DNA of 64,000 nucleotides from the NCBI RefSeq assembly GCF_032918005.1, contig NZ_CP136628.1:1411501-1475500 (forward strand), read 5' to 3'. Below, one piece after another: positions 22,636 through 27,025 of the stretch. Source of the DNA: Bradyrhizobium sp. NDS-1. Lineage in GTDB: Bacteria; Pseudomonadota; Alphaproteobacteria; Rhizobiales; Xanthobacteraceae. The notes below the pieces were generated by a model that had not been told where the DNA came from, searched no databases, and was given only the letters and a program-made list of their open reading frames with translations. The position numbers and the translations under genes are program-made. Within the stretch, counting starts at the first letter, position 1. The number at the start of each line of letters is the position of its first letter.

Positions 22636-22740
22636 GAGGGGCTCCGGGGGACATGCTGTGTGCAGAAGACGAAGGGGCGGTCGGGATTCCGACAACGTCC
22701 GCGCTTCGACTGGGTTGTACCCGGTTGCGCCACCCTCGGT

Positions 22741-22867
22741 GTCGTCCCGGCGAAGGCCGGGACCCATACCGCGTGATCTCTCTATTGCGGACGGTCGCAG
22801 TACCGAACGACGAGTCTTCGCCAAACTACTCCCTGGGGTTATGGGTCCCGGCCTTCGCCGGGACGAC
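22741..22867. repeat. Palindromic repeat, type C
   Basis: Begins GTCGTCCCGGCGAAGGCCGG and ends CCGGCCTTCGCCGGGACGAC; the ends pair over about 17 bases. Inner landmarks CGTGATCT and CTTCGCCAAAC match the element at 14493-14657. Confidence 0.88.
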
Positions 22868-22899
22868 GGCGGAGTACGAGGCGCTATTGTCGGCTGCCC

Positions 22900-23439
22900 C
22901 TATGAATTGATCCATGCCGCAAGCTCTCGCCACGGCTCCAACGTCCAGCTCCCGGACGCCGCACCCGACGGCGAAGGCAGCACGAATATCTCCGGCAAGC
23001 TCGCATCGCGCGGCTGCCGCCCCAGCGCGATCGCAGCCGACGGTCTGCCGTAAAACAAGCTAGCCGCCTTCTTGCTCGTGAACGCGATCGTCCGCGGCCG
23101 ATACTTTTCCATCTTCGCCTTGAAGCCCGGCACGTCGATAGTCTTCGCCGCGATCTGGTGATCCATCCCCGCGCCCGTCTTGGAGAGATCGGTGAAGCCG
23201 ATCCCGAGCTCGATCAGGCCTGCGAACTCGCTCGGCTGATAGCGCCGCCGCGTGATGCCGGCCTCATGGATCGCGCGCCAGAAGCGGTTGCCGGGATGGG
23301 CGTAGTAGTGCCCAAGCTCGGCCGAGCGCGTCGAGGCGGCGGTGCCGACGAAGACGAGGCGGAGATTGGGACGGAGCTGGTCGCGGAGGCGGTGGAGGGT
23401 GGTCTCAAGTGCACAATCGTCGACGTGGTCAGCGCTCAT
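22900..23439 (-). CDS. Uracil-DNA glycosylase superfamily protein (Mug/TDG- or HDG-like)
   Basis: A 179-residue protein of the single-domain uracil-DNA-glycosylase fold, which removes deaminated or mismatched bases. The first motif reads VGTAASTRSAELGHYYAHPG and continues NRFW; GIGFTDL and LPSPSGAASGSW are the other fold markers. Classical Mug has GxNPGxxS in motif 1. Here that Asn is absent and the YYAHPGNRFW segment looks closer to family 6 hypoxanthine-DNA glycosylases, so the substrate is uncertain. It is divergent from the AT-richer pair that begins at 23516. Confidence 0.85.
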   Translation of the reverse strand: MSADHVDDCALETTLHRLRDQLRPNLRLVFVGTAASTRSAELGHYYAHPGNRFWRAIHEAGITRRRYQPSEFAGLIELGIGFTDLSKTGAGMDHQIAAKTIDVPGFKAKMEKYRPRTIAFTSKKAASLFYGRPSAAIALGRQPRDASLPEIFVLPSPSGAASGSWTLEPWRELAAWINS

Positions 23440-23515
23440 CGCCTACGCCGTAAAGGGGTTGCGTGTAAGACTAAATACTCGTTAAAGGAGTGTGTAAGCC
23501 AAGGGGGTTAAGGTC

Positions 23516-24067
23516 ATGGGTGACTTTATCAAGTGGATTGGCGAGAACAAGGATACGGTAACGGGGATCACGGCTATCTTGGCGATAGTCGCATCAACGA
23601 TATCCATTCTCCTCGCGATCATGAACATGAGGTGGCAACGAGTTCACTATCGAAAGACTCTCATGCCTATAGGAAGCATCAGCATGGGAGACTATGAAGA
23701 TAGCATCTTTGTTCGATTGCGCAACGATGGCGCGGGACCAATGATTATGGACGAGATTGTCGTCTTTAGGAACGATGAGAAGGTTGGGGCGGCTTTGATA
23801 GACTTGATGCCGCGAGGGCTGCTCTGGACGACCTTTGTCAAGGACATCTCGGGACGAGCATTCGTATCTGGTAAGGAAATAGATCTTATTTCGATTTCGG
23901 GTGACACAGAAGACCCCGAGTACCTGGAAGCTCATCGTAGCGTTCGTGAAGCGCTATCCACCCTTTCAATCAGGGCGAGCTATCATAGCATCTATGGGGA
24001 CAAGCAGCACTGCCGGCGATCGCTAGACTGGTTTGGCCGTCATGTCAGAGCGGACAAGGGCCCTTGA
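23516..24067 (+). CDS. Membrane-anchored protein, first gene of a candidate defence pair
   Basis: A 183-residue protein with one membrane helix near residues 15-37 (GITAILAIVASTISILLAIM), then a basic flank and a beta-rich domain (IFVRLRNDGAGPMIMDEIVV). No catalytic motif or known family is recognised. The base composition is clearly lower in GC than the flanking genes and the codon use differs (TAT, ATT, AGG), suggesting recent transfer. AAGG lies just upstream of the ATG. The Abi_C-type gene follows 37 bases downstream in the same direction, so they form a probable operon. Confidence 0.78.
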   Translation: MGDFIKWIGENKDTVTGITAILAIVASTISILLAIMNMRWQRVHYRKTLMPIGSISMGDYEDSIFVRLRNDGAGPMIMDEIVVFRNDEKVGAALIDLMPRGLLWTTFVKDISGRAFVSGKEIDLISISGDTEDPEYLEAHRSVREALSTLSIRASYHSIYGDKQHCRRSLDWFGRHVRADKGP

Positions 24068-24104
24068 TCTCACGTCCTTGGTTTAGACCAGCCGGGAGAA
24101 GCTA

Positions 24105-25046
24105 TTGACCGATCAGCCTATTCCAGATTCTAGGGCGCCACTATCGAGATTGATAAACCAGCGGCTTGCCCATTCGCGATATGACGCCATCTACTCCGAT
24201 TGGCAAAAAGCAATTGGTCGATTGGAGGATGATCGCGATGGTGCAGTAACAGCAGCTCGCGCGATGCTCGAAACTATGTGCAAGACTGCGCTAGATGAGC
24301 TTGAGATTCAATATGACGATACATGGGATTTGCCGAAGCTATATTACCTCGTGGCATCGAATCTCGGAATCGCTCCAACTCAGCATACCGACACCTTGTT
24401 TAAGTCAGTTTTTGGGGCAAGCCAGACGATTGTTACCCGCGTAGGCGAGATGCGCAACAAACTGGGAGATGCGCACGGGAAGGCGAACTTGAACCGAGAG
24501 GTGCCACTCCATCATGCTGAGCTGGCGGTAAATCTCTCCGGAGCGATATGCTGCTTTTTGGTCGCCTGCTTGGAAAGTACTGTTGCCGCAAAAAAGCTTC
24601 GAGCACCGGATGGAAGCGTTGTTCTAAAGTTTGATGTTGCAACCGTGTGGCGTCTCGTTGATCACGCCAGAAATGCTCCAACTTCTCTCCCTTGGTATGG
24701 AAGGAAAGGTCCGAAACGAGCGCTTTGGCTTGTGGGAGATGCTGGAATTTATTTGATGAGTAACGGTAGCCCGGCAATGGATCAGAACGGAGCGTTGATC
24801 AAAAAGAAGAAGAATACAGGGGTTCAGCGCTTAGTGGCTCCGGCGCTTGGTTGCGATCCGGCACATAATGCGTTCGAAGATTGGTGGCCGGTCCACAATG
24901 CGGTTGATGATGGGAGCGACTTCAGCATTCCAATAGCGATCAAGCAATTCGAGGTGGTTCTGCCATTGTGCAGGTCACAGATTGTGATTCTGCTAAGTCC
25001 GAAAAAATACACGATACTAAGTGACGCCGAGTATCTGAATCTTTGA
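24105..25046 (+). CDS. Abortive-infection-like protein: Abi_C domain with a C-terminal DUF3085-like domain
   Basis: A 313-residue protein. Residues about 45-165 match the Abi_C pattern: ARAMLETMCKTALDELEIQY, DLPKLYYLVASNLGI, VGEMRNKLGDAHGK and the C-terminal hydrophobic helix. The RNKLGDAHG motif is the hallmark of this family, found in phage-exclusion proteins. The remaining part contains LWLVGDAGIYLMSNGSP and a later WWPVHNAVDDGSDF, which I associate with DUF3085; this assignment is inferred. The start is TTG at 24105 with GGGAGA 5-6 bases upstream. The gene is AT-richer than its neighbours and follows the membrane protein gene. Confidence 0.8.
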   Translation: MTDQPIPDSRAPLSRLINQRLAHSRYDAIYSDWQKAIGRLEDDRDGAVTAARAMLETMCKTALDELEIQYDDTWDLPKLYYLVASNLGIAPTQHTDTLFKSVFGASQTIVTRVGEMRNKLGDAHGKANLNREVPLHHAELAVNLSGAICCFLVACLESTVAAKKLRAPDGSVVLKFDVATVWRLVDHARNAPTSLPWYGRKGPKRALWLVGDAGIYLMSNGSPAMDQNGALIKKKKNTGVQRLVAPALGCDPAHNAFEDWWPVHNAVDDGSDFSIPIAIKQFEVVLPLCRSQIVILLSPKKYTILSDAEYLNL

Positions 25047-25074
25047 TGAGATGATGCCGCGCGTTTCGAATGGT

Positions 25075-25101
25075 GGGTGTCCGGAATTGGTCCGGACACC
25101 C
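25075..25101. terminator. Bidirectional terminator at the end of the insert
   Basis: GGGTGTCCGGA and TCCGGACACCC form a perfect 11-bp stem with an ATTGG loop. It lies 28 bases after the Abi_C-type gene and 14 bases after the converging thiC stop codon, marking the right edge of the AT-richer segment. Confidence 0.88.
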
Positions 25102-25114
25102 TGGAGAAGCCCCA

Positions 25115-27025
<1,911 letters not shown>

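Follow-up and report, generated by a model that had tools for sequence, protein, structure and literature searches.

An HEPN-DUF3085 fusion protein as a candidate abortive-infection effector in the mug-thiC slot of Bradyrhizobium

What are two short, low-GC genes doing between two housekeeping genes of Bradyrhizobium sp. NDS-1? They lie in a 64,000-nucleotide stretch (the window) of the single 7.65-Mb contig of this genome (G000), between a mug-like glycosylase gene and thiC. A sequence-only reading had described them as a defence module made of a single-pass membrane protein and an Abi_C protein fused to a DUF3085-like domain, and part of this description stands. The two open reading frames (ORFs) share one orientation with a gap of 37 bp, and their guanine-plus-cytosine (GC) content is 0.506, against 0.666 and 0.643 in the adjoining 3 kb on the left and right and 0.648 over the window. 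On balance, the evidence favours the 313-amino-acid (aa) fusion protein as a self-contained effector of the abortive-infection type, in which an HEPN ribonuclease (RNase) is under DUF3085 control, carried as cargo of a mug-thiC hotspot.

The Abi_C assignment, on whose failure the sequence-only reading would have been given up, was borne out by the Pfam profile PF14355, which matches residues 77-153 of the fusion protein with 61.3 bits (gathering cut-off 24). The HEPN motif is defined as Rx4-6H with a polar residue after the R (definition in PMC3710099); R117-N118-x5-H124 is present in all 74 fused proteins of the 89-row alignment A3. The Ex3[KR] motif is also found, with E56 in 73 of these rows (one gap) and, four positions on, K60 in 65 and R in 2. 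The PADLOC AbiJ profile matches the HEPN part alone (profile positions 163-275 of 281), and PHROG 23253, of unknown function, matches residues 9-154. The modelled N-terminal domain has the predicted HEPN fold, with MntA-HepT-type HEPN toxins among its structural matches; sequence searches of solved structures with both alignments returned designed proteins or weak matches only. A second hydrophobic stretch, from residue 138, was rejected as a membrane segment, as it corresponds to helix 135-164 of the HEPN model. RNase activity of the fusion protein is predicted from its motifs.

For the C-terminal part, PF11284 (DUF3085) matches residues 207-283 with 40.1 bits (gathering cut-off 25), in agreement with the proposed fusion. 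By our table count, both Pfam domains occur in 88 of the best 120 of 287 homologues at an expectation value (E) of 1e-3, and the few homologues with organism names are alphaproteobacterial. A scan of genome contigs with the single fusion protein gave zero matches, and one with alignment A1 gave 42 loci matching over the DUF3085 side. The DUF3085 core (F, H, V, D-x-G-x-Y-L-M-S-N-G-x-P, A, late D) is common to the fusion and to phage and plasmid DUF3085, in 26 of 26 rows of alignment A7, which includes 22 viral-contig proteins from 22 of the 37 loci found. On viral contigs the domain is a separate ORF (129-236 aa in 36 of 37 loci, 65 aa in one), whereas in the fusion it is joined behind HEPN. 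In PMC12826799, DUF3085 is reported as enriched on broad-host-range plasmids, often adjoining RadC, and as the factor of highest such enrichment in an Enterobacterales set. RadC at E 1e-3 was not found among the 106 of 146 neighbour ORFs scanned beside viral-contig DUF3085, which gave 17 Pfam families, so the plasmid link is not reproduced there. Five of the nine plasmid records found were read, and in four of them (L235, L237, L238, L239) free-standing DUF3085 lies at most two genes from a gene of about 5.1 kb for a helicase or N-6 methylase; in L235 and L238 it also follows toprim and DUF1419 genes.

In the favoured mechanism, the DUF3085 domain would hold the HEPN RNase in check, or aim it, and would recognise a cue that an invading phage or plasmid introduces or produces. 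Once engaged, HEPN would cut RNA, and cell and invader would both be stopped; the infection trigger and the anti-phage effect are thus putative. AbiJ and other Abi_C proteins have the same HEPN with R-N-x5-H and Ex3K, and both models match the fusion. However, HEPN is at the C-terminal end in 15 plain Abi_C relatives (P0103, P0104, P0106-P0111, P0113, P0115-P0120), while in the fusion it comes first, starting at residue 23, and the AbiJ profile is unmatched up to its position 162; the AbiJ layout, with an N-terminal domain followed by HEPN at the C-terminal end, is therefore lacking. MntA-HepT has a nucleotidyltransferase antitoxin, whereas the fusion has no such adjoining gene and its control would be in-chain.

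Among the folds listed as structural matches, the modelled DUF3085 fold appears to resemble domain III of the sliding clamp, and a bolder version of this mechanism can be built on it, which we hold to be rather improbable. DUF3085 would be a single-domain clamp-like fold onto which hosts welded HEPN, giving a decoy or co-assembling sensor that fires on meeting the invader's DUF3085 or clamp partner. If true, this would be a replication or counter-defence partner bound by free-standing DUF3085 or clamps in the invader. The apparent likeness to DnaN domain III is one of modelled fold; no profile-profile sequence match was found, with hhalign probabilities of DUF3085 against DnaN of at most 1%, a level at which the true pair of DnaN domains II and III (1.1%) also falls, compared with 91% for I-II and 86% for I-III. 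DnaN has three domains and DUF3085 one, with no sign of a ring.

The position of the fusion carries the second part of the argument. The thiC end was located in 189 of 195 genus genomes, and its flank was read in 40 of these, taken from the top of the list with complete genomes favoured. A mug-like gene was reached in 39 of the 40, at a distance from thiC of 135-3307 bp (median 1146), and the median GC of this interval is 0.537 (39 loci) lower than the 0.638 of the adjacent gst-mug interval (29 loci). The interval holds an ORF of at least 90 aa in 36 of the 40 genomes and of at least 150 aa in 31. Fusion and membrane protein are both absent from all 40, and G297, called the same species as G000, has a different ORF of 226 aa in the slot. 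Thirty-two of the 51 cargo ORFs have no relative in the other intervals. Together with the one from G297 they give 52 cargo proteins for Pfam; the 25 of 43 families listed include GmrSD, TIR, HEPN RiboL-PSP, RelA/SpoT, protein kinase and HNH, and no integrase family. Single PADLOC scans of 20 of the 52, from 18 intervals, gave matches at 1e-6 for 8 proteins from 8 intervals (NsnA twice, TIR types, kinase, HNH and three weaker models). The slot is a location of defence-type genes by position across strains, not by neighbours within G000. The mug-thiC interval is thus a hotspot for small, low-GC, sometimes defence-like cargo across Bradyrhizobium-group genomes.

Several points weigh against the proposed effector and its setting. 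Defence and RNase activity are computational predictions, and the sensor role of DUF3085 is read from architecture only. MtlR stands in the same list of structural matches, HEPN folds also occurring in non-defence proteins; the Z score just over 13 for a helical bundle is near the level at which the tool itself urges caution, and taken alone Foldseek is weak (best E 0.016). As for the slot, the gst-mug interval likewise differs in length between the 29 loci compared (154-5283 bp), but has normal GC, and for 19 of the 51 cargo ORFs a relative occurs elsewhere among the 40 intervals, so the cargo is partly recurrent. Many cargo proteins belong to no named family, and an ORF does not prove a gene. 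PADLOC includes generic ATPases and kinases and so overstates defence; its control of ten window proteins gave one match, to ATPase-type models, which makes for a small contrast with the 8 matches among 20 cargo proteins that we picked ourselves, mostly the longest.

A separate line of evidence comes from G162, where the fusion adjoins thiC in the same slot and an element that we take to be IS66-like lies on the opposite side. Between the window and G162, the synonymous difference (pS) of the fusion, 0.739, exceeds the 0.282 of the adjoining thiC; hence it is probable that the fusion arrived in the slot independently in each line, underwent exchange or evolves faster. Over the whole fusion the non-synonymous difference (pN) is 0.136, with 0.087 for the HEPN half and 0.154 for the DUF3085 half. 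Because pN of 0.087-0.154 contrasts with pS of 0.65-0.83, which is close to saturation, both halves are under purifying selection. Beyond transposase-like ORFs next to the G162 fusion, a 268-aa ORF (L134:13312-14118) has an RNPRAH motif, presumably HEPN-like by its look.

Does the effector need its neighbour? The 183-aa protein has a single stretch of strong hydrophobicity, beginning near residue 18, as expected of the proposed single-pass protein; its model has a helix at 12-48 that contains this stretch, followed by an Ig-like beta-sandwich, which by the positive-inside rule would be cytosolic. No family was found for it in PADLOC or PHROGs, nor in NCBIfam, which also named none for the fusion; its one Pfam match is below cut-off (E 0.02), and a viral-contig scan found none. 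A two-gene system, with this protein as a required membrane sensor, inhibitor or effector, is favoured by the common strand, short gap and equally low GC, yet we judge it unlikely, for the expected conservation of the pair failed in searches of 265 genus and 385 class genomes, in which first-look candidates up to a set number per genome were scored. The fusion is full-length in two genus genomes (G000, G162), with a partial or whole match in 41, while three have a match to the membrane protein (G000, G197 and, at only 1.9e-5, G001); in the class set the fusion is found in G000 and the membrane protein in G000 and G450. Both occur together in G000 alone, and no membrane-protein match is present in the 16 kb fetched around the G162 fusion. 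The only other strong genus match, in G197, does lend the two-gene system some support: the homologue follows, after 111 bp, a gene that matches HEPN weakly (E 0.039, short of the cut-off), near McrB, McrC and HNH genes in what is likely a defence island (L136:886-8048), a hint that the membrane protein may keep company with RNase-type genes. By tblastn at E 0.01, over fetched stretches some of which are short, the fusion was not found around this homologue or those of G450 (L194), Ruegeria (L168) and two Persicobacter plasmids (L169, L170). An indirect comparison by eye of the longest contig per cluster agrees: among 44 both-domain clusters (longest contig of at least 3 kb), the window's own is alone in sharing a contig size with any of 34 membrane-protein clusters. 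The defence module thus holds as far as defence-like genes occupy the slot in other strains, and is not supported as a two-gene unit. The membrane protein may share a transcript with the fusion in G000; it is at most an accessory and unlikely to be a fixed partner, and any role beside the fusion is a guess.

Somewhat less likely than the two-gene system is a toxin-antitoxin-like or stress-response RNase, not primarily anti-phage and kept as selfish cargo, with the membrane protein or DUF3085 as inhibitor. The MntA-HepT-type structural matches, the two-gene layout and the cargo position would suit it; the second gene, however, is not conserved in the genomes searched, and defence-like families are found among the slot's other cargo. 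A counter-defence or plasmid-maintenance factor left behind by a mobile element, to which the plasmid enrichment and gene neighbourhoods of DUF3085 described above would point, is very improbable, given that none of 149 matching plasmid records covers 80% of the fused protein, that the two phage-record matches are both to the HEPN side, and that the intact HEPN motif fits a toxin.

Compared with known systems, the self-contained effector would be new in its reversed architecture, DUF3085 as control domain, possible clamp fold and hotspot, the HEPN/Abi principle being already known. Our literature search found no description of an HEPN-DUF3085 fusion or DUF3085 clamp fold, and no thiC-side Bradyrhizobium hotspot, the latter a weak negative since 'thic' also matches 'thick'. 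Literature on DUF3085 is near nil, with two papers naming it in the library searched, despite its reported plasmid enrichment; its fusion to a toxin-type RNase points to a module for recognition where hosts and mobile elements are in conflict, with a fold that can be tested. The mug-thiC slot offers a compact site for finding more small defence genes in Bradyrhizobium.

Table 1. Features of the cargo locus and its flanks (window coordinates unless a locus is named).
Feature	Position	Strand	Remarks
313-aa Abi_C/HEPN-DUF3085 fusion ORF	24105-25046	+	TTG start
HEPN domain, residues 23-158	24171-24578	+	
Predicted catalytic motif R117-N118-x5-H124	24453-24476	+	74/74 fused rows
DUF3085 domain, residues 168-313	24606-25043	+	modelled fold apparently like sliding-clamp domain III
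GDAGIYLMSNG, residues 211-221	24735-24767	+	within DUF3085 core common to phage DUF3085
183-aa ORF	23516-24067	+	predicted N-terminal membrane helix and Ig-like beta-sandwich; no named family
Hotspot members	23440-25114; loci L195-L234, L134, L135		
Left flank: mug-like gene	22900-23439	-	G/U mismatch-specific DNA glycosylase family; E 1.6e-33 to 2c2p
Right flank: thiC	25115-27013	-	E 6e-299 to 3epm
Hairpin between cargo and thiC	25075-25101	not assigned	27 bases; 11-bp stem, 5-base loop

Position 25101, where the sequence-only reading had ended the module, is the end of the hairpin. This is possibly a terminator without a T run: the terminator scan called none there, and 11 of 200 shuffles fold equally well (z -2.1). 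In G251 there are two matches to the beginning of the mug-like gene (L166:1-216, 863-1087), as might follow from duplication of a flank during insertion. A dispersed repeat lies at window positions 22726-22891, since 57 of 59 G297 matches of a 2951-base query fall inside its bases 77-242.
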